Shown: piece by piece, positions 28,746-46,334 of the stretch | Numbering within the stretch: position 1 is the first letter of the stretch | Layout: each line of letters opens with the position of its first letter | Position numbers and translations under genes: made by a program | The notes under the pieces: model-generated | The model's input: only the letters and a program-made list of their open reading frames with translations | The model's database searches: none | Told to the model about the DNA's origin: nothing | NCBI RefSeq assembly: GCF_025642155.1 | Contig: NZ_CP106798.1 | Coordinates: forward strand, 7,936,001 to 8,000,000 | Direction: 5' to 3' | Source: Streptomyces sp. HUAS 15-9 | Lineage (GTDB): Bacteria > Actinomycetota > Actinomycetes > Streptomycetales > Streptomycetaceae | DNA length: 64,000 nt

Positions 28746-31595
28746 TCAGGCCAGCTGCCGTCGCACCAGCTCGTGCAGCCGGCCGCCGGTGTCCGCGAGG
28801 AGTTCGGCGGGCGTGCCCTGCTGAGCGACCTTGCCGTCCTCCATCACGATGACCCGGTCGGCGTCCAGCACTGTCGACAGCCGGTGGGCGATGACGATCC
28901 GCGTGGCGTTGAGCTTGCGTGTGCTGTCGATGACGATGCGCTGGGTGTCGTTGTCCAGGGCACTGGTCGCCTCGTCGAAGAAGAGGATGCGCGGGCGGCG
29001 GATCAGGGCCTGGGCGATCATCAGACGCTGGCGCTGGCCGCCCGAGACCGCCCCGCCGCCCGAGACGATCGTGTGCAGGCCCATCGGCATCCGCTTGATG
29101 TCCTCCGCCAGCCCGGCCATCTCGGCAGCCGCCATCGCCTCCTCCGGCGTGCAGGGCTCGGTGCCGCAGATGACGTCCAGGATCGAGCCGGTGAACGGCT
29201 GCGCGTGCTGGAGCACCACCCCGCACTGGCGGCGCACGGCCGACCGGTCCAGCGCCGCGAGGTCCTGCCCGTCGTACAGCACACTGCCCGAGACCGGCCT
29301 GTCGAAGCCGATGAGCAGCCGCAGCAGGGTGGACTTGCCGCAGCCGCTGGGCCCGACGACCGCGACGAACTCGCCCGGCCGCACCTCGAAGGTGACATCG
29401 TCCAGGACGAGCGGGCCGTCGTCCGCGTACCGGAACGACAGCCGGCGGGCCTCGATCGCGCCAGACAGCGGGCTCGGCCGGGTACTGGCCGTGCGCACCT
29501 CGGGCGTCGCGTCCAGCACCGGCCGGATCTCCTCGAACAGCGGCAGCGCGGCCACGGCCGAGACGAACGCGCCGGTGAGCTGGGTGACCGAGGTCAGCAG
29601 CATCGTCACCGACGTGTTGAAGGTGAGGAACGCCGCCGCCGACATCGCCCCCCTCGCCGGGCCCGCCAGCAGCATGAACATCAGCAGGGTGCAGACCGGC
29701 AGGTACACCGCGCCCAGCACCGTCGTCAGGTTCTTGATACGGCCCACCTTCTGCTGGAGCTCACGGCTGCGCGCGAACTCGCCCGCCCAGGCGGCGTACG
29801 CATAGTTCTCGGCCGCCGCCACCCGCAGCTTCGGCAGCCCGCGCAGCGTCTGGAAGGCCTGGTTGTTCAGCTTGTTGCCGAGCACCACGAGCCGTCGCTG
29901 CCAACGGACCTGCCACAGCCCGAGCCCCAGGAACACGGCGGCGATGACCGTGAGCATGCCGATCGCGGCGAGCGCCATGGGCACGCTGTACCAGAACAGC
30001 AGGGCCAGGTTCATCGCGCCGACGGTCACCGACTGGGCGACCACCGGGCCGACTCCCGCAAGCAGTCGCCGTATCGCGCTGATCCCCATGGCCGCGCTCG
30101 CCAGCTCGCCCGTGGACCGCTGGGTGAAGAACTTCGTCGGCAGACGCAACAGCCGGTCCCATACCGCCGGTTGGAGCGTCGCCTCGATACGGCCCTCCAG
30201 ACGCAGGATGGTCAGGTTCTCCAGCAGCATGAACGCGGCCGCCACCGCGCCGCTGACCATCACGGCCAGACAGGCCTGCACGATCAGCCCCTGCTGAGCC
30301 TTCGGTACGTACTCGCCGAGCACCTTGCCGGTGGCGATCGGCACCAGCGCACCGATCGCCACCGTCACCAGACCGGCGAGCAGCAGACGCAGCACGTCAC
30401 CGCGCGTGCCCCGCATGCTGAACCGCAGCAGCCCGAGCGGACCGAGCCTCCGCTCGGGCAGCGGGCGGTAGAACATCACCGCGCGCGGTTCGAACTCCTC
30501 CGCGTTGGCCTTCTCGACAGGGGTCTCGCGACCGGTCGCCGGATGGACGGCCACATAGCCGCCCCGCCGCCACAGCAGCGCGACCGGCGCCCCGGACAGG
30601 GCCCGGTGCCCGACCAGCGGGCCGATGTCGTCCCGCCACCAGCGGCCGTCCAGGCGTACGGCCCTGGTGCGCACCCGGGATGCGAGCGCCACCCGCTCGA
30701 CCGGGTCGAGCCGGTCGCTCTCGGTGCCGCTCTGCGCGGGTTCGGCGAGCGTGATCCCGGCGGCCCGGGCGACCAGCTTGCAGACGGTGTACGTGGCGTC
30801 GGCGTCGGCGGCCGTCGTGCGTCTCCCAGGCGCCTTGCCGATCGACGCGAGCAGCGTGCGGTCGGCCTGGGCGCGGACCGCCTCACCCGCCTTGATCCCG
30901 GCCGCCGTGCGCGTCTCGTGGGTGTGCTCCAGCTGCTCGATCCACCGGTCCAGGGTGGTGAGCAGCCGGTACTGCTGGTCGACCATGCTCTGCCACACGG
31001 CCGGGTCCATCAGCAGGTCGGCTGCGGCCTCCGCACCGTACAGCGACCCGTACTGGACGCTGCCCGGCGGCACCTGCATCCAGAACACGTCGTCGTCCCC
31101 CACGCTCGAATGAACTCGCGCGGGGGCGCCCCCATCGTCGGCCGCGCGTTCGGTCGTCATCGGTGCCTGGAAGAGGATGGACAGGCCGCGGCCGACGCCC
31201 AGCGCGAGGGCGTACTCCAGCGGGCTCGACGTCGGGGGCACGTACTGGGGGTTGCCGTACTCGTCGTACGACCAGGTCTGGGTGGGCGCGGGCTGGTACA
31301 GCTCGCGCAGCCCGATGCGGTGCACCACGCAGTCGCGCAACGGGCGTGCGACCAGGGTGTGCTGCGGACCGGCGACCGGGCCGAGCAGCAGCGAGCCCGC
31401 CTCCAGACGGCCCAGGTGGTGCCAGTGGCCCTGCTGTCCGGCGTCCACCGCGAACAGGTCCAGGGCGCCCGCCGCGACCAGCCACAGCACCTGCGGGCCC
31501 TCGAGGTCGAGGCGGTTGAAGCCGCTGCGGTCGAGGGGCGTGCCCAGCGAGCCGAGCGCGCCCAGGACGAGGTCGCCTTCGTGCACGGAGGTCAT
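28746..31595 (-). CDS. NHLP-type bacteriocin export ABC transporter, permease/ATPase (second component)
   Basis: The 949-residue protein has a long N-terminal cytoplasmic region (about 1-395) without a C39 peptidase. The start of this region resembles a cyclic-nucleotide-binding-like fold, as in NHLM transporters. An ABC exporter membrane domain of six helices (about 410-690) follows, then an ATPase domain (about 715-945) with Walker A AVVGPSGCGKSTLLRL, signature SGGQRQRLMIAQAL and Walker B RILFFDEATSALD. In NHLP clusters it pairs with a peptidase-containing ABC protein and an HlyD-like protein to export leader peptides. ATG 31595 has GGGAGCGGTGAG upstream and starts 1 bp after the upstream gene's stop. 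It is the last gene of the operon. Confidence 0.93.
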   Translation of the reverse strand: MTSVHEGDLVLGALGSLGTPLDRSGFNRLDLEGPQVLWLVAAGALDLFAVDAGQQGHWHHLGRLEAGSLLLGPVAGPQHTLVARPLRDCVVHRIGLRELYQPAPTQTWSYDEYGNPQYVPPTSSPLEYALALGVGRGLSILFQAPMTTERAADDGGAPARVHSSVGDDDVFWMQVPPGSVQYGSLYGAEAAADLLMDPAVWQSMVDQQYRLLTTLDRWIEQLEHTHETRTAAGIKAGEAVRAQADRTLLASIGKAPGRRTTAADADATYTVCKLVARAAGITLAEPAQSGTESDRLDPVERVALASRVRTRAVRLDGRWWRDDIGPLVGHRALSGAPVALLWRRGGYVAVHPATGRETPVEKANAEEFEPRAVMFYRPLPERRLGPLGLLRFSMRGTRGDVLRLLLAGLVTVAIGALVPIATGKVLGEYVPKAQQGLIVQACLAVMVSGAVAAAFMLLENLTILRLEGRIEATLQPAVWDRLLRLPTKFFTQRSTGELASAAMGISAIRRLLAGVGPVVAQSVTVGAMNLALLFWYSVPMALAAIGMLTVIAAVFLGLGLWQVRWQRRLVVLGNKLNNQAFQTLRGLPKLRVAAAENYAYAAWAGEFARSRELQQKVGRIKNLTTVLGAVYLPVCTLLMFMLLAGPARGAMSAAAFLTFNTSVTMLLTSVTQLTGAFVSAVAALPLFEEIRPVLDATPEVRTASTRPSPLSGAIEARRLSFRYADDGPLVLDDVTFEVRPGEFVAVVGPSGCGKSTLLRLLIGFDRPVSGSVLYDGQDLAALDRSAVRRQCGVVLQHAQPFTGSILDVICGTEPCTPEEAMAAAEMAGLAEDIKRMPMGLHTIVSGGGAVSGGQRQRLMIAQALIRRPRILFFDEATSALDNDTQRIVIDSTRKLNATRIVIAHRLSTVLDADRVIVMEDGKVAQQGTPAELLADTGGRLHELVRRQLA

Positions 31596-31596
31596 C

Positions 31597-33819
31597 TCAC
31601 CGCTCCCTGACCAGCGCGGCATATGCTCCGCCGCGCGCCACCAGCTCGTCGTGCCGGCCGCGTTCCACGATCGTGCCGTGCTGGAGGACGACGATCTCGT
31701 CGCTGTCGCGCACGGTGCTCAGCCGGTGGGCGATCACCACACAGGCACAGCCGCGCCGGCGCAGATTGTCCATGACGACCAGCTCGGTCTCCGCGTCCAG
31801 CGCGCTGGTCACCTCGTCCAGCACCAGGATGCTGGGCCGGCGGACCAACGCCCGTGCGATCTCCAGACGTTGACGCTGACCGCCGGAGAAGTTCCGGCCG
31901 TCCTGCTCGACCTTGCTGTGGATACCGCCGGGCCGCCGCACGACGACGTCGTACAGGGCCGCGTCCCGCAGCGCCTCCACCACCGCGTCGTCCGGGATCG
32001 ACGGGTCCCACAGCGCCACGTTGTCGCGGACCGAGCCCTCGAAGAGGAACACGTCCTGGTCGACGAAGGACACCGAGGACGCGAGCGCGCCCCGCGGAAT
32101 GTCCTCCAGCCGCTGCCCGTCGATGCGGATCACCCCCTCCCAGGGCGCGTACAGGCCCGAGATCAGCCGGGAGACCGTCGACTTGCCGCTGCCCGAGCCG
32201 CCGACCAGCGCCACCTGCTGCCCGGGTCCGACGGTCAGGTCGAAGCCGGTGAGCAGGGGCTTGTCCAGGGGGCTGTAGCCGAAGGAGATGTTCTCCAGCT
32301 CGACATGGCCGTGCAGCCGACGCGTGGAGTCACCGCCGCCGGGGCGGGCGTAGAGCGGGTCCGCCTGGAAGTTCTCCACGTCCTTCAGACGGGCCACGTC
32401 GGCCGCGAAGTCCTGGATGCGGCCCGCCACGCCGTTCAGCCGGGTGAGCGGCGCCGTGAAGCGGGTGACAAGTGCCTGGAAGGCGACCAGCAGACCGACC
32501 GAGATATGGCCCTCCACCGCCCGCATACCGCCGATCCAGAGGATCAGCGCGCTGTTCAGGGTGGCCAGCGTGGGCGCGACCACGCCGAGCCAGGCGCTGG
32601 GCGCCCCGAGCCGCTGCTGCTCCTCCAGGGTGGTGGCGTGCTGTCCCGCCCACTTGCGGAAATAGCCGTCCTCGCCGCCTGTCGCCTTCATCGTCTCGAT
32701 CAACTGGAGCCCGGTGTAGGCCGTGTTGGTGAGCCGTGCGGTGTCCGCCCGCAGCTTCGCCGTACGGGTCGCGCGCAGCCGTACGACGAGGCGCATCGCC
32801 ACGACGTTGAGCAGCGCCACACCGATGCCGACGAGAGTGAGCTGCGGGTCGTAGGCGTAGAGCAGCACCGCGTAGAGCACGACCACGATCGCGTCCACAC
32901 CCGCCGCCGCGAGGTCACGGGCCAGGGTCTCGGCCACCTGGTCGTTGGACTGGAGCCGCTGCACCAGGTCGGCGGGGCTGCGCTGGGCGAAGAACGTCAC
33001 CGGCAGCCGCAGCAGATGCCGCAGGAAGCGGGCGCTGGAGAGGGTGGAGGAGATGATGCGGCCGTGCAGCAGGTTGGCCTGCTGGAGCCAGGTCAGCACC
33101 AGCGTGAGCAGCACGCAGGTGCCCATCGACGCGAACAGCACACCCAGCAGCGAGGTCTGGCCGCCGATCAGGAACATGTCGATATAGGTACGGCTGAGCG
33201 CCGGCACCGCCGCGCCGACCGCGACCAGCAGCAGGCTCGCCAGCACCGCGGCGGGCATGGTGCCCGCAGTGCCGCGCAGCCGGGCCGGCATCGCGCCGAG
33301 GACGCCAGGCCTGCGCCCGCCCTTCGCGAAGCCTTCCCCCGGCTCCATGACCAGGACGACCCCGGTGAAGCTCCCGTCGAACTCCTCGAAGGGCACGAAA
33401 CGGCGGCCCTTGGCGGGGTCGTTGATATGGACGCCGCGCCGTCCGAAGCGGCGCCCCATGCCGTCGTAGACGACGTAGTGGTTGAACTCCCAGAAGAGGA
33501 TGGCCGGTGCCGTCACCTCCGCGAGGGCGGCCAGGTCCATCTGCATGCCCTTGGCGGTCAGGCCGTAACCGCGCGCCGCCTTCAGCAGATTGCTGGCGCG
33601 CGAGCCGTCACGGGAGACACCGCAGGCGATGCGCAGCTCCTCCAGCGGGACATGGCGGCCGTGGTGCCCGAGCACCATGGCGAGGGAGGCGGCACCGCAC
33701 TCCACCGCCTCCATCTGGAGCACGGTGGGCGTACGGACGGTCCGCCCGCGGCCCTTGGGGACCGGGCGCCCGGCCGGTGCGGCGCGCCGGCGGCCGCGGG
33801 TCTGCTGAGCGGTCGTCAC
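31597..33819 (-). CDS. NHLP-type peptidase/permease/ATPase ABC exporter (C39 domain)
   Basis: The 740-residue protein has an N-terminal C39 peptidase (about 28-165): Cys41 in EAVECGAASLAM, His114 in FNHYVVYDG, and the Asp in HINDPAKG. These domains cut precursor peptides after a Gly-Gly motif. A six-helix permease (about 185-470) and an ATPase domain follow, with Walker A ALVGGSGSGKSTVSRL, FSGGQRQRLEIARAL and Walker B SILVLDEVTSALD. The GTG start at 33819 overlaps the HlyD stop (GTGA), so translation is coupled. It is the expected maturation protease for the GG-leader precursor encoded at 34730-34945. Confidence 0.94.
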   Translation of the reverse strand: MTTAQQTRGRRRAAPAGRPVPKGRGRTVRTPTVLQMEAVECGAASLAMVLGHHGRHVPLEELRIACGVSRDGSRASNLLKAARGYGLTAKGMQMDLAALAEVTAPAILFWEFNHYVVYDGMGRRFGRRGVHINDPAKGRRFVPFEEFDGSFTGVVLVMEPGEGFAKGGRRPGVLGAMPARLRGTAGTMPAAVLASLLLVAVGAAVPALSRTYIDMFLIGGQTSLLGVLFASMGTCVLLTLVLTWLQQANLLHGRIISSTLSSARFLRHLLRLPVTFFAQRSPADLVQRLQSNDQVAETLARDLAAAGVDAIVVVLYAVLLYAYDPQLTLVGIGVALLNVVAMRLVVRLRATRTAKLRADTARLTNTAYTGLQLIETMKATGGEDGYFRKWAGQHATTLEEQQRLGAPSAWLGVVAPTLATLNSALILWIGGMRAVEGHISVGLLVAFQALVTRFTAPLTRLNGVAGRIQDFAADVARLKDVENFQADPLYARPGGGDSTRRLHGHVELENISFGYSPLDKPLLTGFDLTVGPGQQVALVGGSGSGKSTVSRLISGLYAPWEGVIRIDGQRLEDIPRGALASSVSFVDQDVFLFEGSVRDNVALWDPSIPDDAVVEALRDAALYDVVVRRPGGIHSKVEQDGRNFSGGQRQRLEIARALVRRPSILVLDEVTSALDAETELVVMDNLRRRGCACVVIAHRLSTVRDSDEIVVLQHGTIVERGRHDELVARGGAYAALVRER

Positions 33820-34622
33820 GGGAGCAGCCAATCGACGGGTCGCTGGTCGGCCAGCCGGATCGAGGCCGTGGCCAGGGTCATGGAGTCGAGCCGGTACGGC
33901 GGGCCGCTCGCGGACGACCACCGGTAGCCGCTCCTCGTCGAGGGCGACCGGTCCAGCCTCACCAGGACGGCCACCGGGCGGCCCTTCCCGGTGAACTGCT
34001 CGCCCAGCTGGCTGTCCCCGAGGAACGCGGCGATCGACTGGGCGGACTGGGCGGTGCGGTCCACCGACTTCACATGGCCGCGCAGCACGCCGTACCGCTG
34101 CGCGGACACCGAGGACACGGTGAGGTCGACCGTGGCGTCGGCGGGGACGGAGGCCGCGTTCTCGGCGGGGACGTACACCGTCGCGTACAGCGGGTCCGAG
34201 GAATGGGCGACCTTCTCCACCGCGGCCACGTTCGCGCCGGTCCTGATGATCTGCCCGATGGTGGCGGCGAGTGCGGTGACGCGGCCCGCGGCGACCGTGC
34301 GGACGACCGAGTCGCCCTGGCTCGTACGGACCTTCAGGACGGGCGAGCCTGCGGGCAGCCGCTCACCCTGCCGGGCGAGGACGGCGGTGACCTGGCCGGC
34401 GACGGGGCTCTGCAGGATGTAACTGCCCTGCCCGTGCGTGAGGATGGCCTGCGCGCTCACCGTGGAGGCGACCGAGCCGGTCACCGCCCAGACGGAGGCG
34501 GCCGCCATCACGACGACGGCGACGCAGAGCGCCAGCCAGCCCTGCGGGCGGGCGAGACGCACCGGAAGGTCGAGCTCCTCCGGCGACTGGAGCTTGGCGA
34601 GGGCCTGTTGACGGAACTGCAC
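33816..34622 (-). CDS. HlyD-family NHLP secretion protein
   Basis: The 268-residue periplasm-adaptor-like protein has one N-terminal TM helix (LALCVAVVVMAAASVWAV, about 30-47) and then a beta-barrel/lipoyl region (ILQSPVAGQVTAVLARQGERLPAGSPVLKV and GRVTALAATIGQIIRTGANVAAV). This is typical for the third component of NHLP bacteriocin systems. It is shorter than Gram-negative HlyD, as expected for a monoderm. It is first of the three export genes and is separated from the precursor gene by a strong hairpin. Its stop overlaps the next start by four bases. Confidence 0.9.
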   Translation of the reverse strand: MQFRQQALAKLQSPEELDLPVRLARPQGWLALCVAVVVMAAASVWAVTGSVASTVSAQAILTHGQGSYILQSPVAGQVTAVLARQGERLPAGSPVLKVRTSQGDSVVRTVAAGRVTALAATIGQIIRTGANVAAVEKVAHSSDPLYATVYVPAENAASVPADATVDLTVSSVSAQRYGVLRGHVKSVDRTAQSAQSIAAFLGDSQLGEQFTGKGRPVAVLVRLDRSPSTRSGYRWSSASGPPYRLDSMTLATASIRLADQRPVDWLLP

Positions 34623-34678
34623 GGAACTTCCCTCACCTGTGGGAGAGGCTGCGCCACGACATGGTTCTGGGCATCCGA

Positions 34679-34711
34679 GAGTCCCGGAGCCGGGATACGG
34701 CTCCGGGACTC
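34679..34711 (-). terminator. Attenuator-like hairpin between precursor and export genes
   Basis: A perfect 14-bp stem (34679-34692 with 34698-34711) encloses a 5-nt loop. It lies 18 bp past the precursor stop and 57 bp before the HlyD start. In bacteriocin operons such a partial terminator gives high precursor mRNA with limited read-through into the exporter. Confidence 0.75.
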
Positions 34712-34729
34712 AACGGCAGCGAGGTGCGA

Positions 34730-34945
34730 TCAGAGACCGGCGACCAGGCCGGCGACCGGGGCGGTGTTCAGACCGGTGACACCCTCGACGGTGCCGACGG
34801 CCGTGTCCGCCAGGCCGGAAACCGGGGCAATGCCGTTCACGGCACCGGTGACGGTGTTGAGGGCGTTCACGGAAAGGCCGCCGGAGACGTTGTCCAGCTC
34901 GGCGTCCGAGATCTCGACGGTCTCGACCTGGGGGGTGGAGTTCAT
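34730..34945 (-). CDS. GG-leader precursor peptide with Cys-less core
   Basis: This 71-residue product has a 23-residue leader, MNSTPQVETVEISDAELDNV then SGG, matching the ELDNVSGG double-Gly leader of actinobacterial type A2 lantipeptide-like precursors. The predicted 48-residue core begins LSVNALNTVTG and ends APVAGLVAGL. It has no Cys, Trp or Lys, and is rich in Gly, Ala, Val, Thr and Leu with recurring V-x-G-(L/I/V) motifs. Without Cys no lanthionine can form, and no modifying enzyme gene is in the window. ATG 34945 has AAGGGAAG seven bases upstream; an ATG at 34963 would add six residues. It is the expected cargo of the downstream NHLP exporter. Possibly an unmodified membrane-active or self-assembling peptide (inference). 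Confidence 0.82.
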   Translation of the reverse strand: MNSTPQVETVEISDAELDNVSGGLSVNALNTVTGAVNGIAPVSGLADTAVGTVEGVTGLNTAPVAGLVAGL

Positions 34946-35453
34946 GATGGAACTTCCCTTCATACGAATATTTCACAAGGGGGAGAGCGGCCCCCTCCGA
35001 GAACAGATGGACGGCCGCGACCGCGGGCGCCGGGCACCCTTTCGGGAAGCCCTTCGCGGCTCCCGCGACGCGATGGATCAAAGCACGCACGCGGCTCGCG
35101 CAGCCAATCAACCAGGCGTCTCACCTGGGAACTTGACCTTCGCAGGGACCCATCGGTGAGGGCGCGCGCACGGCTTGTCGGCGACTCCTTCACATGGCGC
35201 ACGGCATCGGCGCAGACAAACGCTTGCCCCGGGGCGGGCAATCCGGCACTCCGCGCCGAAGGCGCGAGGAGGGGCACGCGATTGTGCAGAACCGCCGGAC
35301 CCGGTGACTTGGTTGAGTATTCAATGTGCAGATTCCCTGAAGCAGGGATTCCGGTCCGGGTCCGGAACGGACCGTGTCCGGACGGTTGCCGACCGTGTCG
35401 ATTCGGAGGTCCCAGAGGTCGCCGACCGTGTCAGCGCGGCAGCGCAGGCCGTG
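34946..35453. promoter_or_regulatory. 508-bp promoter/leader region of the peptide-export operon
   Basis: No credible gene was seen on either strand. Reading toward the precursor, a GGGGGCCGC...CTCCCCC hairpin (about 34979-34998) lies just ahead of the AT-rich leader TGTGAAATATTCGT, which may be an attenuator or operator. At the far end GCCGACCGTGTC occurs twice (near 35388 and 35421) with a partial third copy near 35450, a short direct repeat. A -35/-10 pair could not be fixed. Confidence 0.4.
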
Positions 35454-36052: not shown

Positions 36053-37531
36053 TTGAGTCACAAGCGAATGCCGAAGCGCAAGGCCGCGATAGCGGTGGGC
36101 GGTGTCGCGGCGCTCGGAGCGGCGGCCCTTCTGCTGCCGAACGCGATGGCGTCCCAGGACGGCGGCTCGGCGGATGCCGCCGGCGCTCCCAGGACCATGA
36201 AGGCCAATGACGCCTCGGACCTGGCCGCGCAGCTCCAGAAGGCGCTCGGTGACGCCTTCGCCGGCTCCTACTACGACTCCGGCAAGCAGCAGCTCGTCGT
36301 CAACGTGGTCAGCGGCGACAACAATCTCATCGTCCAGGCCAAGAAGGCGGGCGCGGTCGTCCGCCAGGTGGAGAACAGCACCTCCGAACTCAAGGCCGCC
36401 GCCCAGACCCTGAAGACCAAGGCGACCATCCCGGGCACCTCCTGGGCCGTCGACCCCAGGACCAACAAGGTCCTGGTCACCGCCGACAGCACCGTCACGG
36501 GCGCAAAGTGGAACAGACTGGAGTCGACGGTCCAGGGCCTCGGCTCGGGCATGGCGACCATCAAGAAGTCCGCCGGCACGTTCAAGACCTTCGTGTCGGG
36601 CGGCGACGCCATCTTCTCCCAGGTGCAGGGCGGCAACGTCCGCTGCTCCCTCGGCTTCAACGTCAAGGCGTCCGACGGCAGCCCCGCCTTCCTGACGGCC
36701 GGTCACTGCGGTGTCGCGGCCAAGGACTGGTCCGACTCCCAGAACGGGCAGCCCATCGCCACCGTGGACCAGGCCACCTTCCCCGGCCAGGGCGACTTCT
36801 CGCTCGTCAAGTACAACGACGCCACCACCCAGGCGCCGAGCGAGGTCAACGTCGGCAACGGCCAGGCACCCGTCCAGATCAAGCAGGCCGTGGACGCCAC
36901 CGTCGGCACGACGGTCTTCCGGATGGGCTCCACCACCGGTCTGCACGACGGCCAGGTGACCGGCCTCGACGCCACCGTCAACTTCCAGAGCGAGACCGAC
37001 CCCAACGGCGTCGACACGGTCACCGGACTCATCCAGACCAACGTCTGCGCCGAGGCCGGCGACAGCGGCGGCTCCCTGTTCACCCAGGACGGCGGCGCGG
37101 TCGGCCTGACCTCCGGTGGCAGCGGCGACTGCACCAGCGGCGGCGAGACCTTCTTCCAGCCGGTGACCGCCGCCCTGCAGGCGACCGGCGCGACGCTCGG
37201 CGACGCCGGTGCGGGTGCCGGTGCGGGTGCCGGGGACCAGTCCGGTGCCGGCGGTGACGCGGTGGGCGGCGGCGACCAGTCCGGCGCCACGGCCGACCCG
37301 TCCGCCACGGCTGACCCGTCCGCCACGGCCGACCCGTCCGCGACGGCGACCAACCCGGCGGGTACGGGCGACCAGTCCGGTGCGGGTGCGGGCGACCAGT
37401 CCGGTGCGGGTGCGGGCGACCAGTCCGGTGCGGGTGCGGGCGACCAGTCCGGCACCGGTGACGCGACCGGTACGGGCCACCAGCCGGGTACCGGCGCGGG
37501 CGACGGCTCGGCCGTCAACCAGGGCCACTGA
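36053..37531 (+). CDS. Secreted S1E (streptogrisin/alpha-lytic-like) serine protease with repetitive C-terminal tail
   Basis: The TTG start at 36053 follows GGAGG by nine bases and gives SHKRMPKRKAAIAVGG, a standard signal peptide; the ATG at 36068 lacks such a site. The 492-residue precursor has a propeptide (about 45-175) that in the family acts as a folding chaperone. The mature chymotrypsin-fold protease has His218 (TAGHC), Asp248 (GDFSLV) and Ser338 (GDSGGS), and Cys residues placed for disulfides. The last 110 residues are low-complexity: three ADPSAT repeats, then four GDQSGAGA repeats. This tail may be a flexible spacer to the wall, but no LPXTG or lectin domain follows. Confidence 0.92.
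   Translation: MSHKRMPKRKAAIAVGGVAALGAAALLLPNAMASQDGGSADAAGAPRTMKANDASDLAAQLQKALGDAFAGSYYDSGKQQLVVNVVSGDNNLIVQAKKAGAVVRQVENSTSELKAAAQTLKTKATIPGTSWAVDPRTNKVLVTADSTVTGAKWNRLESTVQGLGSGMATIKKSAGTFKTFVSGGDAIFSQVQGGNVRCSLGFNVKASDGSPAFLTAGHCGVAAKDWSDSQNGQPIATVDQATFPGQGDFSLVKYNDATTQAPSEVNVGNGQAPVQIKQAVDATVGTTVFRMGSTTGLHDGQVTGLDATVNFQSETDPNGVDTVTGLIQTNVCAEAGDSGGSLFTQDGGAVGLTSGGSGDCTSGGETFFQPVTAALQATGATLGDAGAGAGAGAGDQSGAGGDAVGGGDQSGATADPSATADPSATADPSATATNPAGTGDQSGAGAGDQSGAGAGDQSGAGAGDQSGTGDATGTGHQPGTGAGDGSAVNQGH
37292..37460 (+). repeat. In-frame 18-bp and 24-bp tandem repeats in the protease gene
   Basis: A GCCACGGCCGACCCGTCC-type 18-bp unit occurs three times, followed by a 24-bp unit (GACCAGTCC at 37370, 37394, 37418 and 37442) four times. 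Both periods are multiples of three, so copy-number change keeps the frame and only alters the length of the Ala/Gly/Asp/Ser tail. Confidence 0.85.
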
Positions 37532-37688: not shown

Positions 37689-39830
37689 TCAGGCGGGCCC
37701 CAGCGCCCGCAGCAGCAGCACCGCCACGTCGTCGGCCCGCTCCCGTGCCGCCACGCTGTGCGCGACGAGTTCGTCGGCCAGTTGCTCCAGCGGCCGTTCC
37801 CCGATCGTGTTCAGCAGGTCACCCATGTCGGCCAGGGCGTCCTCGATGTCCACGCCGGGCGATTCGACGAGGCCGTCGGTGTACAGGACGAGGACCGAGC
37901 CCGTGGCGAGGTCGACCTCCGTCGTCGGGTACGTCGCCTCCGCGTCGATACCGAGCAGCGGCCCCCCGGCCAGGTCCAGGACGCGCACCCGCCCGTCCGG
38001 CCGTCTCAGCAGCGGTGGCGGATGCCCCGCACGGGCCATCACGGCACGCTCGTTGACCGGATCGAGCCGCAGATACAGACAGCTCGCGAACAGATCGGCG
38101 CCGAGGTCGACGAGCAGCCGGTTGGTGCTGGCCATCACCTCCTGCGGCGCCTGGCCGCCGGTGGCGAACGCGCGTACCCCGGTGCGGATCTGCCCCATCA
38201 GCCCGGCCGCCGTCACGTTGTGTCCCTGGACGTCCCCGATCACCGCCGCCGCGAACGGCCGGGTCGGCACCACGTCGTAGAAGTCGCCGCCGATCTCCAT
38301 GCCCTGAGTGGCCGGCAGATAGCGCGCGGCCGCCTCGATGCCCGGCGGCGGCATCAAGGAGCGCGGCAGCAGGGCCTCCTGCAGACCGTGCGCCAACTGG
38401 TTCTTGGCGTCGTACAGCAGTGCCCGCGCCAGGGCCTGCGCGATCAGCCCGCCCAGGCTTGTCAGAACGGCCCGCTCGTCCGCTGGGAAGACATGCGGCT
38501 CCGTGTAGGCGAGCACACAGGTCCCCACCGGCCGCCCTGACGCGATCAGCGGCAGATAGGCCCAGGCCGCGAAGCCGCCCGGCAGCCCGGTCAGCCCCGG
38601 ATACAGGCGGTCCAGCTGCTGCCGGGTGTCGAAGAACGCCGGCACCCCCGTGGTCAGGACGTGGGTGCCCGGCATCCGCTCGGACAGCGCAATACCGTCG
38701 AACCGCTCGACATGGTGCGGGTTCGCATACCCGCGGTGCCCCAGCACGTGCAGCCGCCCGCCCTGCGACCCGAGCAGCACCACGGCCTGACTACCCACGG
38801 ACGGGACGATCTCGTCCGCGACCAGCTGCACCACGTCCTGCACGCCCACCGCCTCGGTCAGCGCTCCGGCCAGGCTCAGCACCTGGGAGATGGTGACCAG
38901 ACGGGACCGTCCCGCACCGGTCTGCGGAGCGGCCCGCCCCATCTCCGCCACCGCCCGTGCCCTGCTGATGCGCACGCTCAGCCCGGTCGTGCTCGGGTAG
39001 AGCCGGAACGACAGCCAGTCGCCCGGCGGGCGCAGCGCCACGAACGACGTCACGTGCTGGCTGATCAGGGCGGCCCGGTACCGGTCCTCGTACATCGGGT
39101 CGTTCAGCCAGGGCACCGAGGCCCACAGATGGGTGCCGAGGAGCTCACCGGCGGGTGTGTCGAGCAGCTCGGCCGCCGCCGCGTTGGCGAACCCGACCTG
39201 GCCGTGCAGATCGAGCGACACCAGCCCGTACGGCAGCCGTGCCACCATCCGCGCGGCCTCGACCGTGCCCAGGGTGCCCGCGACCCCCGTCACGGTCGAC
39301 GCCAGCAGATCGGGCTCGCGCGGGATCGGCCGGTTGTCCTGCGCCGCCCGCTCCAGGCGCACCGCGAGCCGGTCACAGGCCGCGGTCAGATGCTCACGCT
39401 CCCGGTCGGACAGTTCCGGCGGATGCGAACCGGGCCAGGTCACGAAGACCGCGCCGTACGCCTTGGCCGCGGTGGCCACGGGCAGGGCGGCCAGCGCGAA
39501 GGGATAGGGCAGGACCACCGCGATACGGGGGTAGCGCCGGGCCATGTCGTCCTCGCCGCCCACCCAGACCAGCCGCCGGCCGCGGACCGCCTCCGCGACC
39601 GGGATCGGCGCGCTCAGCCCCACCCGCTCCCACGGCGCCGCGAACGCCCGGGGCAGCCCAGCCACCACCGCCATCTCCAGTACCGGCTCGTCGTTCGCCA
39701 GCAGGTACACCGCCCCGGAGTGGGCGTGGACCTCGTCCATCATCGTGGCCAGCGACAAGGAGAGCAGCGGTCGGCCGACCCGCGTACCGGTGGCCTCCGG
39801 CGCCTGCGCGGGCTTCTGCCCGTCGGACAC
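37689..39830 (-). CDS. GAF-PAS-GAF-SpoIIE phosphatase
   Basis: The protein has about 713 residues and no TM helix. Domains are: GAF 1 (about 20-165), PAS (about 195-300, GLVSLDLHGQVGFANAAAAELL), GAF 2 (about 320-480) and PP2C/SpoIIE (about 490-705). The last includes EIGGDFYDVVPTRPFAAAVIGDVQGHN, MARAGHPPPLL, LVLYTDGLVESPG and a terminal ADDVAVLLLR. The metal-binding Asp residues are intact. Unlike its divergent neighbour it has no C-terminal ATPase domain. It probably dephosphorylates STAS antagonists. GTG 39830 has GGAGG eight bases upstream; GTG 39839 is too close to it. Target protein unknown. Confidence 0.92.
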   Translation of the reverse strand: MSDGQKPAQAPEATGTRVGRPLLSLSLATMMDEVHAHSGAVYLLANDEPVLEMAVVAGLPRAFAAPWERVGLSAPIPVAEAVRGRRLVWVGGEDDMARRYPRIAVVLPYPFALAALPVATAAKAYGAVFVTWPGSHPPELSDREREHLTAACDRLAVRLERAAQDNRPIPREPDLLASTVTGVAGTLGTVEAARMVARLPYGLVSLDLHGQVGFANAAAAELLDTPAGELLGTHLWASVPWLNDPMYEDRYRAALISQHVTSFVALRPPGDWLSFRLYPSTTGLSVRISRARAVAEMGRAAPQTGAGRSRLVTISQVLSLAGALTEAVGVQDVVQLVADEIVPSVGSQAVVLLGSQGGRLHVLGHRGYANPHHVERFDGIALSERMPGTHVLTTGVPAFFDTRQQLDRLYPGLTGLPGGFAAWAYLPLIASGRPVGTCVLAYTEPHVFPADERAVLTSLGGLIAQALARALLYDAKNQLAHGLQEALLPRSLMPPPGIEAAARYLPATQGMEIGGDFYDVVPTRPFAAAVIGDVQGHNVTAAGLMGQIRTGVRAFATGGQAPQEVMASTNRLLVDLGADLFASCLYLRLDPVNERAVMARAGHPPPLLRRPDGRVRVLDLAGGPLLGIDAEATYPTTEVDLATGSVLVLYTDGLVESPGVDIEDALADMGDLLNTIGERPLEQLADELVAHSVAARERADDVAVLLLRALGPA

Positions 39831-39985
39831 GCCGACCACCTCCTCGTACGGCCGCGCGTCTCACCCCCCAGGGGTCAAGGCTCTCTCCTGGCGGCGCGCG
39901 GCGCACGGCGAGCGGGCCGCGCCGGACCCCCGTGAGCTCCACGGAACGGTCGCAGGGGCTGCGCGGACGGCCCATAAGCGCTGTA

Positions 39986-42436
39986 ATGGCGGACGTGGTC
40001 AGTGAGGGCGCTGCGGTACGCAGAACGAGGAGGGAGCGTGCCGAAGTTGCCCTTGAAACGGTCATGACCGGCCCCGACGCGCCCGATCGACTGCACCGCG
40101 TCATCGAACAGGCACTCGTTTTCGCCGGGGCGTCCTTTGTCGGCGTGTACACGCCGAGCGAGGACGGTGCCGTGCTCCGCCTCGCGGAGTCCGCGGGGCT
40201 GCCGCGCACGCTGTACGGGCTGCGCGACGGCTATCCCGCCTCCGCGCAGTCCCCGCTCGCCGAGGCCCACCGCACCGGGCAGCCGATGTGGCTCGGCCCC
40301 GAGGAACTGGCGGCCTGCCCCGAGGCGCGCCGCACACCGTCCCGGGAGTTCTTCGTGGCGGCCCTGCCGGTGCGGGCGGGCGACGGCTGTCTCCTCGCCG
40401 TGAGCGAGCGCGTCGGCGGCTTCGACTCCGAGGACCGCCGGTGCCTGGAACTGATCGCCGACTCGGTCGCCCTGCCCGCCCCGCCCGGGGCCACCGCCAC
40501 CGGTGAGCTGCCCGCCGACGCCTTCAGCCTGGCCATGGACACCGGCCGCGTGGATGTCGGCGACGAGATCCTGGAGCTGTTCGGGATCGGCCGCGACGAG
40601 TTCGACGGCAAGGTCGAGACCCTGCTCGGGATGACCGTGCCCGAGGACCTGCCCGCGCTGATGTCCGTCGTCGAGGCCGACCACATGTCCATCGGCGACC
40701 GCGAGCTGGAGTTCCGCGTCCTGCAGCCCTCCGGGCCGCCCAAGTGGCTCCGGCTGCGCGGACGGATGGTCCCGGGCGGCGAGGGCCGGCCCGCGCTCCT
40801 GGTCGGCACCGTGACGGACACCTCCAAGCTGCGCTCCGACGTCACCGACGTGGCCCGCGTCCAGCGCCTGGCCGCGGCGCTCGCCACCGCCGGCACCGTC
40901 AAGGACGTCGGTCAGGCCGTCGTCAACGCCCTGCGCAAGCCGCTCCAGGCCGACCGGCTCGCCCTCGCCGAGCTGGAGAACGACCGTCTCGTGGTCACCG
41001 TCCTCGACCCGCCAGAACCCGACGTCTGGCCCGAGGTGTGGCGCTCCGAGTGGCGCACGGAGTGGCCCGACGCCCCCGTCCGGGCCATGCCCACCCTCGC
41101 CGCCGCCCTGCGCGAGGGCCGCGCCCAGATCTGGGCCGCCGGCACCACCCTGGAACCCGCCCTCGCCGAGGTCGGTCCCGGTGGCCTCGCGGTGCTGCCG
41201 CTGCCCGCCGGCGGCCGCATGGCCGGCGCCTGCCTGATCGGCTGGGACAGCCCGCACGAGTTCGGCCCCGACGAACGCGCCCTGCTCACCGCCTCCGCCG
41301 GACTGGCCGGCCAGGCCCTGATGCGCGCCCACGCCTTCGACGCCGAGCACGAGCTCGTCGGCATGCTCCAGCGCACCCTCCTGCCACGCCGCCTGCCCAA
41401 GCTGGCCGGCGCGGTCGCCGTGGCCCGCTATCTGCCCACCACCGCCGGGCTGGAGGTGGGCGGCGACTGGTACGACGTGATCCCGCTGCCCGACAACCAC
41501 GTCGCCCTCGTCATCGGCGACGTCCAGGGCCACAGCGCGGCCGCCGCCACCCTCATGGGCCAGATGCGCACCGCCCTGCGTGCCTACGCCGCCGAGGGCC
41601 ACACCCCGGACGTGGTGGTCTCGCACGCCAACCGGCTCCTCATGGACATGGAGTCTGACCTCTTCGCCACCTGCTGCTACGTCGACGTGGACATGGAGGA
41701 GGGCACAGCCTGGTGCGTGCGCGCCGGACACCTGCCCCCGGTGCTGCGTCACCCGGACGGCGTAACGGAGGTCGTCGAGACCGAGGGCGGCCCGCCGCTC
41801 GGCGTGGTCGACCGGGCCGACTTCCCCATGGCCCCGCTGCATCTCATGCCCGGCACCGTGCTCGCGCTGACCACCGACGGCCTGGTGGAGTCAGCCGACG
41901 CCGACATCGACGTCGGCATGGACCGGTTCGCCCACGACCTGGCCGCGTCCGACCCCGCCCACCTCGGTCTGGTCGCCGACGCCCTGCTCGGCAACGCCCA
42001 CCGCAGCGACGACGTCGCCCTGCTCCTGATGCGCTACGACGGCATGGCCGTGCGCCCGCTCAGGGAGAGCTGGACGGTGTGGCGGGTGCCGGAGGCCGCC
42101 CGGCACGCCCGCCGCTTCACCAAGCGCACCCTGCGCGCCTGGGGCGTACCCGCGGACGACCTGGACACCGTGCTGCTCGTGGTCTCCGAGCTCGTCACCA
42201 ACGCCCTCGTGCACACCGACGGCCAGGTCCGCCTCGACCTCACCCTGGTCAACCACCGGCTCCGGGTCGCCGTCGCCGACGCCTCGCCGCGCACCCCGAT
42301 GAAACCCACCAACATCGGCTGGGAGGCCACCGGCGGCCGCGGCATCCTGCTCGTGGAGGCCGTGTCGGTCGCCTGGGGGACGCTGCCGGTGAGCGGCGGC
42401 AAGCAGGTGTGGGCCGACATCGCGCTCGAGGACTGA
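39986..42436 (+). CDS. GAF-PAS-GAF-SpoIIE-HATPase regulator
   Basis: The protein has about 816 residues. Domains are: GAF (about 35-155), PAS-like (about 170-285, MDTGRVDVGDEILELFGIG), GAF (about 295-440), SpoIIE phosphatase (about 455-660; LEVGGDWYDVIPL, VIGDVQGHSA, ALTTDGLVES, DDVALLLMRYD) and an RsbW-like ATPase (about 690-812; VVSELVTNALVHTDGQ, TGGRGILLVEAV). Having both phosphatase and kinase-type domains, it could switch a STAS protein in both directions. The start is uncertain: ATG 39986 has no good ribosome site and the frame is open upstream. It is divergent from the other SpoIIE gene across about 155 bp, a likely shared control region. Confidence 0.9.
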   Translation: MADVVSEGAAVRRTRRERAEVALETVMTGPDAPDRLHRVIEQALVFAGASFVGVYTPSEDGAVLRLAESAGLPRTLYGLRDGYPASAQSPLAEAHRTGQPMWLGPEELAACPEARRTPSREFFVAALPVRAGDGCLLAVSERVGGFDSEDRRCLELIADSVALPAPPGATATGELPADAFSLAMDTGRVDVGDEILELFGIGRDEFDGKVETLLGMTVPEDLPALMSVVEADHMSIGDRELEFRVLQPSGPPKWLRLRGRMVPGGEGRPALLVGTVTDTSKLRSDVTDVARVQRLAAALATAGTVKDVGQAVVNALRKPLQADRLALAELENDRLVVTVLDPPEPDVWPEVWRSEWRTEWPDAPVRAMPTLAAALREGRAQIWAAGTTLEPALAEVGPGGLAVLPLPAGGRMAGACLIGWDSPHEFGPDERALLTASAGLAGQALMRAHAFDAEHELVGMLQRTLLPRRLPKLAGAVAVARYLPTTAGLEVGGDWYDVIPLPDNHVALVIGDVQGHSAAAATLMGQMRTALRAYAAEGHTPDVVVSHANRLLMDMESDLFATCCYVDVDMEEGTAWCVRAGHLPPVLRHPDGVTEVVETEGGPPLGVVDRADFPMAPLHLMPGTVLALTTDGLVESADADIDVGMDRFAHDLAASDPAHLGLVADALLGNAHRSDDVALLLMRYDGMAVRPLRESWTVWRVPEAARHARRFTKRTLRAWGVPADDLDTVLLVVSELVTNALVHTDGQVRLDLTLVNHRLRVAVADASPRTPMKPTNIGWEATGGRGILLVEAVSVAWGTLPVSGGKQVWADIALED

Positions 42437-42792: not shown

Positions 42793-44336
42793 CCCGCCCC
42801 GACTCCGAACCCGCCCCCGGCACCGATTCCGCCACCGGTACCGCGCGCCGCTCCGCACACCCCGCCGAGCGGCTGGTCGAGGCGGCGGACGCGCGGTTGC
42901 CGGTGCTGGAGGGCGGGGCGCTGCTGCGCAAGGCGTTCCCCGACCACTGGTCTTTCCTGCTGGGCGAGTTGGCGCTGTACAGCCTGCTCGCCCTGGTGCT
43001 GACCGGGGTGTGGCTGACCTTCTTCTTCAAGCCGGAGATGCGGGAGGTCGTCTACACGGGCCCGTACGTCCCGCTGCAGGGGGTGCGCATGTCGGCCGCC
43101 TTCGACTCCACACTGCACATCAGCTTCGACGTGCGCGGCGGTCTGCTGATGCGGCAGGCGCACCACTGGGCGGCGCTCGTCTTCGTCGCCGCGATCGGCG
43201 TGCACATGCTCCGGATCTTCTTCACCGGCGCCTTCCGCAGGCCCCGCGAGCTGAACTGGGTCATCGGGCTCACGCTGTTCGTGCTCGCCCTCGCCGAGGG
43301 GTTCGCCGGCTACTCGCTCCCCGACGACCTGCTCTCCGGCACGGGCCTGAGGATCGCCCAGGGCATCATGCTGTCCATCCCGGTGGTCGGAACGTACGTG
43401 GCCTTCTTCGCCTTCGGCGGGCCGTACCCCAGCCACGAGATCGTCACCCGCCTGTACTCGATGCACATCCTGCTGCTGCCCGGCGCGCTGATCGCCCTGG
43501 TCACCGTGCACCTGATCCTGGTGTTCCACCTCAAGCACACGCAGTGGCGCGGACCGGGCCGCTCGAACCGCAACGTCATCGGCAGGCCGCTCTTCCCCCG
43601 GTTCACGGCCGCGTCCGGCGGGCTGTCCTTCGCCGTCTTCGGCGTGCTCGTCCTGATGTCCGCCGTCGCCCAGATCAACCCGGTCTGGGTGTACGGCCCC
43701 TACCGCCCCGACCAGGACTCGACCGGATCCCAGCCCGACTGGTACGTCGGCTTCCTGGAGGGCGCGCTGCGCCTCGTACCGCCGTGGGAGACCAACCTCG
43801 CCGGTCACACCCTCATGTGGAACGTGCTGCTGCCGGCCGTAGTCCTGCCCGGACTGCTGTTCGGCGTCCTGTACGCATACCCCTTCGTGGAGCAGCGCCT
43901 GACGGGGGAGTGGGACCACGAACGGCATCTGTGCGACCGGCCCCGCGAGCGTCCCGTGCGCACCGGCCTGGGCGTCGCCGGCACCGTCTTCTTCGCCGTG
44001 CTGCTCCTCGCCGGCGCCAACGACGTCATCGCCCAGTCCTTCCGGATCTCCGTCAACGCCCTGACCTGGGTACTGCGCGTCTCCCTGGTGGTGGCCCCGG
44101 TCGTCGCGTTCCTGGTCGCCCGGTGGCTGTGTCTGGCCCTGGTGGAGGCGGAACGGGAGCGGCTGACGAAGGGTGTGCCGACGGGCGACGTACGGCAGAC
44201 CCTCGCGGGTGGCTACGAGAGCGACCACCGCCCGGCCGGCGACTTCCGCCCCGGTGCGCCCAGGCGGCCGATCACCGGTGCACGTACTGGAAGACCATCC
44301 CGAGGACACCGCGCGCCAGCACGCCGAAACCGATGA
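42789..44336 (+). CDS. qcrB: Cytochrome b subunit of a bc1-type complex (orphan QcrB paralogue)
   Basis: The 515-residue membrane protein has the actinobacterial QcrB plan. Paired haem-b histidines are in MRQAHHWAALVF...GVHMLR (helix B) and RLYSMHILLLPG...VTVHLILVFH (helix D). The Qo-site loop carries PDWYVGF. Eight or nine TM helices can be traced. It oxidises quinol and passes electrons to c-type cytochromes. The usual qcrC and qcrA genes are not beside it, so this is probably a second copy outside the main qcrCAB operon. Its 3' end overlaps the convergent ctaF gene by 65 bp. A Gly/Arg/Pro-rich C-terminal tail is encoded in that overlap. Confidence 0.9.
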   Translation: MTRPDSEPAPGTDSATGTARRSAHPAERLVEAADARLPVLEGGALLRKAFPDHWSFLLGELALYSLLALVLTGVWLTFFFKPEMREVVYTGPYVPLQGVRMSAAFDSTLHISFDVRGGLLMRQAHHWAALVFVAAIGVHMLRIFFTGAFRRPRELNWVIGLTLFVLALAEGFAGYSLPDDLLSGTGLRIAQGIMLSIPVVGTYVAFFAFGGPYPSHEIVTRLYSMHILLLPGALIALVTVHLILVFHLKHTQWRGPGRSNRNVIGRPLFPRFTAASGGLSFAVFGVLVLMSAVAQINPVWVYGPYRPDQDSTGSQPDWYVGFLEGALRLVPPWETNLAGHTLMWNVLLPAVVLPGLLFGVLYAYPFVEQRLTGEWDHERHLCDRPRERPVRTGLGVAGTVFFAVLLLAGANDVIAQSFRISVNALTWVLRVSLVVAPVVAFLVARWLCLALVEAERERLTKGVPTGDVRQTLAGGYESDHRPAGDFRPGAPRRPITGARTGRPSRGHRAPARRNR

Positions 44337-44655
44337 GGAACAGCCACAGCCCGAACACCACCCCGGTCGCCGCGAGCGCGAAGCCCAACGCGGTGACCAG
44401 CGGCCAGATGCTCTCGGCGGGGAAGAACTCCAGGGGCCCCGCGCCGTCGGCCACTTCGGCGTCGGTGCGGTCCTGGGGGCGCCGTCCCTTGCGCACGTAC
44501 TGCACCGCGCAGAAGAACGCGATGACCGCGGCCATCCCGCCCGCGACGATCAGCGCCGCCGTGCCCGCCGATTCGTGCGACCACACGCCGTACAGGGCGG
44601 CGACACCCGCGAAGAACAGGGCGACACCGCCGAACAGCAACGCCTCGACCTTCAT
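44272..44655 (-). CDS. ctaF: Cytochrome c oxidase subunit 4 (CtaF-type)
   Basis: The 127-residue membrane protein has four hydrophobic segments ([75 protein letters not shown]) and the [10 protein letters not shown] motif typical of the actinobacterial oxidase subunit IV. It supports the aa3 oxidase inside the bcc-aa3 supercomplex. Its ATG overlaps the ctaD stop (ATGA), so both are coupled. It runs into the tail of qcrB on the opposite strand. Confidence 0.9.
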
Positions 44656-46334
44656 CGCGTTCCCTCCTCCACCGTCTGCTTGGCGAACTCGGGGTGGTGC
44701 AGGTCGAAGGCGGGCGATTCCGACCGCACCCGGGGCAGGGCGACGAAGTTGTGCCGGGGCGGCGGGCAGGACGTCGCCCACTCCAGGGCCCGGCCGTAGC
44801 CCCAGGGGTCGTTCTCGGTGACCATCGGCGCCCGGTGCGCGGTGCGCCAGACGTTGTACAGGAAGGGCAGTGTGGAGGCGCCGAGCAGGAACGCGCCCGC
44901 GGAGGACAGGGAGTTGAGCAGGGCGAAGCCGTCCTGGGGCAGATAGTCGGCGTACCGGCGGGGCATGCCGGCCTCGCCGAGCCAGTGCTGGACGAGGAAC
45001 GTGAGCTGGAACCCCGGGAAGAGCAGCCAGAAGTGCAGCTTGCCGAGGCGTTCGTCGAGCATCTTGCCGGTGAACTTGGGCCACCAGAAGTAGAAGCCGG
45101 CGAACATCGCGAACACCACCGTTCCGAACAGCACATAGTGCAGGTGCGCCACGATGAAGTACGAGTCGGTCAGATGGAAGTCGAGCGGCGGCGAGGCGAT
45201 CAGCACCCCGCTGAGCCCGCCCAGCAGGAACGACACCAGAAAGCCGAGCGACCACAGCATCGGCGTCTCGAACGAGACCGACCCGTGCCACATCGTCCCG
45301 ATCCAGGCGAAGAACTTGATCCCGGTGGGCACCGCGATCAGGAACGACATGATCGAGAAGAACGGCAGCAGCACCGCGCCGGTGGCGAACATGTGGTGCG
45401 CCCACACCACCGCGGACAGCATGGTGATCGTGATCGTCGCGCCGATCATCGGCAGATACCCGAACAGCGGCTTGCGCGAGAACACCGGGATGATCTCGGA
45501 GACGATGCCGAAGAACGGCAGCGCCACGATGTAGACCTCGGGGTGCCCGAAGAACCAGAACAGGTGCTGCCACAGCAGCGCGCCGCCGTTCGCCGATTCG
45601 AAGACGAGCGAGCCGAACTTCCGGTCCGACTCCAGGACCAGCAGCGTCGCGGTGAGCACCGGGAACGCGGGCAGCACCAGGATCGACGTGAACAGCACGT
45701 TCCACGTGAACATCGGCATCCGGAACATGGTCATGCCCGGGGCGCGCAGACACAGGATCGTGCTGATGAAGTTGACGGCACCCAGCGTCGTCGACACACC
45801 GGTCACCACGAGCCCCATCACCCACAGGTCGCCGCCCGCGCCGGGGGAGTAGAAGGCGCTGTTGAGCGGCGCGTAGGCGAACCACCCGAACGCGGCCGCG
45901 CCGCCGGGCACCACGAAGCCCGAGACCACCATCAGCCCGCCGAACAGATACATCCAGTACGACAGCGCGTTCAGACGGGGGAAGGCCACATCGGGGGAAC
46001 CGATCTGCAACGGCATCACGGCGTTCGCGAACCCGGCGAACATCGGGGTGGCGAACAGCAGCATCATGATCGTGCCATGGATCGTGAAGAACTGGTCGTA
46101 GCCCTGCGCGCTCAGGAACTGCAGCCCGGGGCGGGCGAGTTCGCCGCGCATGCCCAGGGCGAGCAGCCCGGCCAGGAGGAAGAAGCAGAACGCCGTGACC
46201 ATGTAGAGGCGGCCGATCACCTTGTGGTCGGTCGTCGAGGCCCAGCGCAGCAGGGCCCGGCCGGGCCGCGGCGCGGTGGCGGCGTACCGCTCGGCGATCT
46301 CGTACTTTTCCGAAATTTCTGGTAGTTCCGTCAT
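44652..46334 (-). CDS. ctaD: Cytochrome c oxidase subunit I (aa3 type)
   Basis: The 560-residue protein has 12 TM helices. All ligand motifs are present: haem a His in [13 protein letters not shown], CuB His and the cross-linked Tyr in [10 protein letters not shown], CuB HH in WAHHMF, and haem a3/a ligands in [14 protein letters not shown]. It reduces O2 to water and pumps protons. Subunits II (ctaC) and III (ctaE) are absent from the locus, so they must be supplied by the main cluster if this is a functional second copy. ATG 46334 lacks a strong ribosome site. Confidence 0.95.

Follow-up and report, generated by a model that had tools for sequence, protein, structure and literature searches.

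A cysteine-free double-glycine peptide and its NHLP-type exporter in Streptomyces: distribution, predicted shape and possible role

Genetic organization of the export operon

In the 64,000-nucleotide stretch of Streptomyces sp. HUAS 15-9 analysed here (contig NZ_CP106798.1, positions 7,936,001 to 8,000,000; hereafter the window), the minus strand carries a four-gene operon that associates a small peptide precursor with an export machinery of the NHLP type. A precursor gene of 71 codons (34945-34730) heads this operon and is followed by the genes of a HlyD-type adaptor (33816..34622), of an ATP-binding cassette (ABC) protein combining a C39 peptidase, a permease and an ATPase (ABC1; 31597..33819), and of a second permease-ATPase (ABC2; 28746..31595). 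All three adjacent exporter genes exceed the cut-offs of the curated NHLP family models: the adaptor, which is short (268 amino acids for a model of 421 positions), reached 160.9 bits with TIGR03794 (cut-off 156.2), ABC1 reached 1019 bits with TIGR03796 (cut-off 853) and matched Peptidase_C39 at 3.5e-35, and ABC2 reached 889 bits with TIGR03797 (cut-off 709). The coordinates, order and strand proposed for this gene set in the original prediction were right. ABC1 probably starts at the GTG codon at 33819, overlapping the HlyD stop, and ABC2 at 31595, immediately past the ABC1 stop. Gene order and the near-zero gaps between the exporter genes suggest that the peptide, HlyD, ABC1 and ABC2 share one transcript.

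The precursor has 71 amino acids when read from the ATG at 34945. An upstream ATG yields a 77-amino-acid version used by some annotators; the shorter form is preferred here, with a putative ribosome-binding site read inside the six extra codons. The leader (residues 1-23, MNSTPQVETVEISDAELDNVSGG; 34877..34945, minus strand) ends in ELDNVSGG, and cleavage is predicted after the double glycine (GG). It scored 18.6 bits with the bacteriocin leader model bacteriocin_sig (TIGR01847, cut-off 15.7), the sole NCBIfam precursor model over its cut-off; the precursor had no Pfam match at E<=0.01, and its leader was recognized as neither nitrile hydratase-like nor Nif11-like. The predicted mature core of 48 residues, LSVNALNTVTGAVNGIAPVSGLADTAVGTVEGVTGLNTAPVAGLVAGL (34733..34876, minus strand), has a net charge of -2 and is devoid of Cys, Lys, Arg, His, Met and aromatic residues, its predicted helices being broken near P41 and P63. 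As had been proposed, a 71-residue precursor with this leader and a Cys-free core was borne out, and the V-x-G-[LIV] motif described as recurrent occurs six times in the window core, a number never reached in 20,000 shuffles (mean 0.47).

This organization is related to several known systems. The three-gene export sets of NHLP/Nif11 precursors, in the available portion of PMC2887384 (Haft et al. 2010), are built from the same families (TIGR03794, TIGR03796 and TIGR03797), whereas the window precursor has a short bacteriocin-type leader and no enzyme for lanthionines or for thiazole/oxazole-modified microcins (TOMM) alongside. The locus itself is not new, since it fits SCO0753-SCO0756 of S. coelicolor when compared by description and gene order. 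According to the accessible text of PMC6629963, SCO0753 is a 77-residue hydrophobic peptide without Cys, encoded upstream of the HlyD gene SCO0754, the ABC genes SCO0755-0756 and the exopolyphosphatase gene SCO0757; the four genes SCO0753-0756 are conserved in many Streptomyces, and its authors, noting the missing Cys, already doubted a SapB-like lantibiotic. Both loci have a Cys-free hydrophobic peptide (77 amino acids as annotated in S. coelicolor), HlyD and two ABC genes in that order, but they differ in what follows: SCO0757 there, a convergent SRPBCC gene in the window. A Ppx/GppA gene in the same orientation follows ABC2 in 47 of 160 loci (some genomes counted twice), which supports orthology with SCO0753-0756.

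Distribution, composition and search for modification enzymes

Peptide and exporter are closely associated throughout the genus. The peptide was matched in 212 of 295 Streptomyces genomes and ABC2 in 221; the homologous cores with the same exporter that the original prediction had proposed to look for were found in 208, with the peptide only in 4, the exporter only in 13 and neither in 70 (Fisher 5.6e-49). The four peptide-only genomes have weak matches, all with E above 1e-4. Ten of the 13 exporter-only genomes carry a divergent Cys-less GG peptide upstream of HlyD that was missed by the first search; of the other three, one is on a truncated contig and two have a different type of exporter. 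Among 80 exporter loci of up to 20 kb each, picked so that divergent ones were included, the peptide lies directly upstream of HlyD in 74, two being cut by a contig end and four having another exporter type; HlyD adjoins the peptide in all 80 loci retrieved by a peptide query. Beyond the peptide, HlyD and the two ABC genes, no fifth gene family was found genus-wide, the next commonest occurring in 24 of 81 loci. A survey of cores in 161 sequences (160 loci and the window) left 17 without a peptide by a first pattern, of which 11 were recovered by a looser one; the remainder are four loci with another exporter type and two truncated contigs (L045, L094).

Outside the genus, matches were obtained in 60 of 121 genomes and 8 of 17 genera of the wider family, and the NHLP ABC2 is rare at class level (26/246 genomes, 19 of these Streptomyces). 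Under midpoint rooting, the Cys-less type of exporter (96 members) is monophyletic, with a support of 0.94, and sits on a long branch. Homologous exporters linked to YcaO/ThcOx genes in Streptomyces and other Actinomycetes (L047, L049, L054, L056, L258-L260) have an ABC1 about 40-53% identical, but YcaO and/or ThcOx-type nitroreductase genes adjoin them, and those included in the tree fall outside this 96-member clade.

Genomes with several peptide matches hold orphan precursors elsewhere with the same leader. Fifteen such loci, with no NHLP exporter nearby, were examined (L265-L267, L273-L275, L278-L283, L285, L287, L292); several of their cores are glycine-rich, two contain Cys (L279, L280), and these precursors may use the same exporter in trans. 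At L263, outside Streptomyces, tandem precursors (~10622 and ~10192, minus strand) lie ahead of one exporter; this locus being the only one with tandem precursors, a two-peptide bacteriocin was dropped.

Core composition follows a consistent pattern. Of 128 distinct Streptomyces cores, none contains Cys, 12 contain Lys/Arg, 5 an aromatic residue and 1 Met, and 21 more cores from 20 further wider-family operons, nearly all of other genera, gave 0 for Cys, 5 for aromatic residues and 3 for Lys/Arg. The cores are hydrophobic and Val/Thr-rich, with Ser and Thr together at about 19%, an average of 3 GxxxG motifs and a mean net charge of -2.2; Lys/Arg is absent in 112 of 124 distinct cores. The ratio of non-synonymous to synonymous substitution rates (dN/dS) in the near clade (70 distinct genes) was 0.23 for the leader and 0.57 for the core. 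Although the core changes faster than the leader, none of its 68 distinct substitutions among close relatives was to K, R, C, W, F, Y, M or H, against 24% expected from one-base changes (binomial 7e-9, from variants that are not fully independent), so that core composition is under selection.

These data bear on whether the product is an unmodified class II bacteriocin, whose GxxxG helices would insert into the membranes of competitors. A GG leader matching TIGR01847 and a C39 exporter are what this class would have, and both the GxxxG motifs and a core evolving faster than its leader would suit it. No dedicated immunity gene was seen, however, only four genes being common to the 81 loci compared, a comparison whose scope ends short of distant genes. 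Bacteriocins are usually cationic and tend to a patchy distribution, whereas these peptides are acidic, mostly without Lys/Arg, and occur in 212 of 295 genomes. A bacteriocin is thus an unlikely identity for this peptide, and the non-bacteriocin role raised in the original prediction is plausible.

The absence of modification enzymes was addressed at several scales. No LanB, LanC, YcaO or radical SAM domain was found among the 20 window genes scanned, which are part of the window's genes, and the scanned flanking genes; the LanB negative is limited to these, LanB-type dehydratases having had no profile search across relatives. Across 76 genomes, profile searches with coordinates compared by eye, valid as far as contigs reach, showed the operon to be free of LANC_like matches (E<=1e-5) out to 9 kb and of YcaO out to 10 kb. 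The two marks of a lanthipeptide, Cys in the core and a lanthionine synthetase in the cluster, are accordingly missing from these 128 cores and 76 genomes, as is the YcaO gene of a TOMM/azole cluster (0/76). Radical SAM genes, sought across the loci by the CxxxCxxC pattern alone in called genes, gave none in the window and a single case among 160 loci, L084, where two such genes lie directly downstream of the operon.

The closest enzymes found elsewhere lie further out. The nearest LanC-like genes are class III synthetases whose LANC part is 9.6-10.4 kb upstream in five genomes (three at 9.6-10.0 kb); they belong to a cluster separate from the peptide operon. The LANC_like profile at E<=1e-5 is partly blind to such enzymes: of the linked genomes it covered, it reported them in only 5, and the RamC_N profile found them. 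In G290, a LanC-like gene lies 13.7 kb from the operon, and the closest YcaO genes among the 76 genomes, in G035, are at 11 and 15 kb. At that locus (L057, G035:C7), the two YcaO genes are joined by a nitroreductase/ThcOx-like gene, all of them downstream of the operon at 5-16 kb. The window's own genome has two LanC-like genes, at least 230 kb away, and neither YcaO at E<=1e-5 nor RamC_N at E<=1e-30.

The use of an NHLP exporter without known RiPP (ribosomally synthesized and post-translationally modified peptide) chemistry, as first proposed for the window, is well supported, a Cys-less peptide being present at all 74 clade loci with complete upstream sequence (80 retrieved). The original prediction named orthologous clusters retaining an enzyme lost here as one thing that would overturn it, and the 76 genomes yielded none. 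As these distances (9 kb for LANC_like, 10 kb for YcaO) are free of matches in all of them, enzyme loss in the window genome is unlikely; it looks as if the exporter lineage had settled on an unmodified substrate. A protein search returned 686 relatives at E<=1e-3, and many Streptomyces entries among the 120 listed are named 'type A2 lantipeptide', a National Center for Biotechnology Information (NCBI) label that the present data contradict; the bacteriocin label is weakened.

Predicted shape of the core

The first periodicity test was made on non-redundant cores that are still related, which inflates its z-scores, and a set with at most 50% identity is the stricter one. In this set, hydrophobic periodicity peaks at 90-112 degrees per residue in 14 of 20 cores (shuffles 3.8, maximum 9) and glycine periodicity in 17 of 20 (shuffles 3.8), while beta-type peaks (>=150 degrees) occur in 1 of 20 against 5.5 expected from shuffles. 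At 40% identity, 8 of 11 cores remain in the helical band for hydrophobics and likewise for glycines. Glycine spacing peaks at 3-4, 7 and 11. A helical core is thereby supported by sequence statistics, and, with helical periodicity and glycines spaced 3-4 apart, the most suitable interpretation of V-x-G-[LIV] is a helix with a glycine face. AlphaFold2, run with 37 close sequences, modelled three helices (14-38, 43-57 and 62-70) without any strand; its confidence was low (mean pLDDT, the predicted local distance difference test score, 58).

A fibril-forming peptide, also suggested in the original prediction, for instance of the amyloid or chaplin type, would suit a Val/Thr-rich, hydrophobic and exported core. 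The scarcity of beta peaks and the strandless, low-confidence model stand against it, and we regard it as very improbable; for the same reason, an elastin-like or fibril reading of V-x-G-[LIV] was abandoned. Membrane activity, proposed alongside, or surface activity is possible.

SapB/AmfS-type neighbourhood and possible role

In part of the near clade, the operon lies close to a lanthipeptide cluster of the SapB/AmfS type. RamC_N linkage was assessed in 79 of 118 close relatives, genomes with broken contigs being counted as unlinked: 32 have a RamC_N match upstream of the peptide on the same strand and contig, at a distance of 9.9-12.7 kb in 31 and of 7.2 kb in one, a fragment, and 59 have a match anywhere. 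The weak LanC-like matches about 10 kb away in five genomes are class III synthetases, one exceeding the class III model cut-off and two matching RamC_N (Pfam), with RamC_N matches in reading frames at the same places in the other three. The precursor beside the class III synthetase, MALLDLQTLES...VSLLSCVSAASILLCL, fits the LLDLQ leader and SXXSXXXC motifs given for the SapB/AmfS-like durhapeptin group in the available part of PMC13380574. L298 (G254) and L299 (G205) contain such a cluster upstream of the peptide operon, its precursor being SapB/AmfS-like; in the divergent clade, G015 has RamC_N about 15 kb from the peptide, among the matches listed for the 295 genomes. The original claim that no modification gene lies in the flanks holds for the immediate surroundings and extends to the scanned window genes, but is qualified by this synthetase with its own precursor about 10-12 kb upstream in part of the near clade.

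Neighbourhood counts in the near clade were made on 74 of 81 distinct operons, those with 6.5 kb of upstream sequence, window included. A 202-residue regulator found beside the synthetase lies within 8 kb in 40 of the 74. Between the operon and the regulator or synthetase are a serine protease gene (68/74) and a SpoIIE-type gene (within 8 kb in 69/74), both of which also occur in the window, outside the operon: a divergent gene for a secreted serine protease with an alpha-lytic prodomain and a trypsin domain (36197..37531, plus strand), and a PAS/GAF/SpoIIE phosphatase gene (37689..39839, minus strand). The linkage of the peptide operon to a SapB/AmfS-type synthetase is a new observation of this work, and no paper relating SCO0753 to SapB by gene position was found in the open-access literature.

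With a class III enzyme in the vicinity, modification in trans has to be weighed, by which a distant LanM, or the LanKC of the SapB-type cluster, would dehydrate Ser/Thr before export. The Ser and Thr content of the cores, the class III synthetase genes that 32 of 79 close relatives have 7-13 kb upstream, and the two distant LanC-like genes of the window's genome would allow for it. On the other side, thioethers would lack the Cys they require, neither RamC_N nor YcaO was found in the window's genome at the thresholds used, and the neighbouring cluster has its own LLDLQ precursor, while the LLDLQ recognition motif, as given in the portion of PMC13380574 at hand, is absent from the present leader. 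Modification in trans is accordingly improbable.

Published expression data concern the S. coelicolor counterpart. In the accessible text of PMC6629963, no gene of a dispersed-growth strain is overexpressed more strongly than SCO0753 (over 60-fold), whose expression almost disappears in the null mutant. In a regulator mutant, the available part of PMC5733086 reports only 3 of 217 secondary-metabolism genes as up, namely SCO0753 and two genes of the SapB cluster. Excerpts of two further papers mention SCO0756, whose expression rises in a ppm1 mutant (PMC5882110) and drops slightly in a copper-homeostasis mutant (PMC6414726).

The reading we favour, which we consider about evenly balanced between right and wrong, is that of an unmodified, helical, surface-active morphogenetic peptide that leaves the cell through an NHLP pump of its own and accompanies peptides of the SapB/AmfS type. 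It draws on sequence and published expression, the peptide itself being predicted. From family knowledge and domain content, the C39 domain of ABC1 would remove the ELDNVSGG leader behind its GG while the peptide is being exported, and the 48-residue core would leave the cell through ABC1, ABC2 and HlyD. Neither lanthionines nor azoles would be formed, in line with the lack of Cys in any core from these export operons and of LanC-like or YcaO genes in the immediate flanks. Outside the cell, the acidic hydrophobic core would form alpha-helical segments with glycines 3-4 apart, as the periodicity indicates, packing against each other or on a membrane. The gene neighbourhood of relatives and the expression of the S. 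coelicolor counterpart point to the hyphal surface, where the core would act in morphogenesis beside SapB/AmfS-type peptides. More tentatively, and with less confidence, it could be a lanthionine-free glycine-zipper morphogen that coats hyphae or loosens their adhesion, and that is encoded beside the SapB-type cluster in part of the genus and can persist where this cluster is missing, as in the window genome. The class III lanthipeptides SapB, AmfS and durhapeptin, as presented in the accessible part of PMC13380574, are likewise small hydrophobic secreted peptides tied to hyphal development, but have Cys, thioether rings made by LanKC, and a different leader and exporter.

Several observations weigh against a morphogenetic role. 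Linkage to SapB is not general and may be inherited gene order: 47 of 79 close relatives have no linked RamC-type gene, 27 of the 59 owners have it elsewhere or on another contig, the regulator is near none of 61 divergent-clade operons, and the RamC_N profile found no RamC-type gene in the window's genome. Parsimony gave 16 changes in regulator presence with an ambiguous root, so that gains and losses are not separated. In the text available from PMC6629963, the authors state that the dispersed growth of their strain may come from reduced matB, and the match to SCO0753 was drawn from its description, from gene order and from the exopolyphosphatase gene downstream in 47 of 160 loci. As to the predicted shape, 26 of 79 segments of the exporter proteins, taken as a yardstick, also have their peak in the helical band, and helical periodicity does not distinguish a surface peptide from a pore-former; the core dN/dS of 0.57 in the near clade, faster than the leader, is compatible with antagonism too.

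The serine protease gene beside the operon could act on the peptide, and its presence in 68 of 74 near-clade operons also bears on a peptide pheromone, the core or a fragment of it signalling within the species. GG-leader pheromones exist, and a weak match to a VP1 pheromone model was obtained (16.7 bits, cut-off 85). Signals usually diverge between species, however, whereas this long and very hydrophobic core stays similar from one species to the next, and no receptor or kinase is found among the four conserved genes. We hold a pheromone to be a poor prospect.

If the morphogenetic reading is true, the peptide would be a second surface peptide next to SapB. Peptide and pump are kept by about seven in ten sampled Streptomyces, under the name of lantipeptide in databases and of bacteriocin in papers. 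Because 112 of 124 distinct cores have no tryptic site and there is usually no aromatic residue, standard proteomics would tend to miss it, and this may explain why it has stayed unstudied.

Upstream of the precursor gene (34946..35453, minus strand), 71 distinct upstream sequences, window included, revealed conserved blocks at ~35350-35305 and ~35090-35065. The distal block may belong to the divergent protease gene. Among upstream regions, 68 of the 78 close ones and 11 of the 66 divergent ones contain TTTGATCCATC, against a background of 0 elsewhere in those loci. An inverted repeat, TCCCTG-N3-CAGGGA, was rejected as an operator, being kept in 6 of 78 close relatives, and no Rfam match exceeded its gathering score. 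Elsewhere in the window are a P450 gene (3973-5202), about 30 kb from the operon, and three SpoIIE phosphatase genes with PAS/GAF domains (14979-17402, 37689-39839 and 40064-42436). A COX1-type oxidase gene (44652-46334) adjoins a cytochrome b gene (42897-44336), possibly as a second respiratory set.

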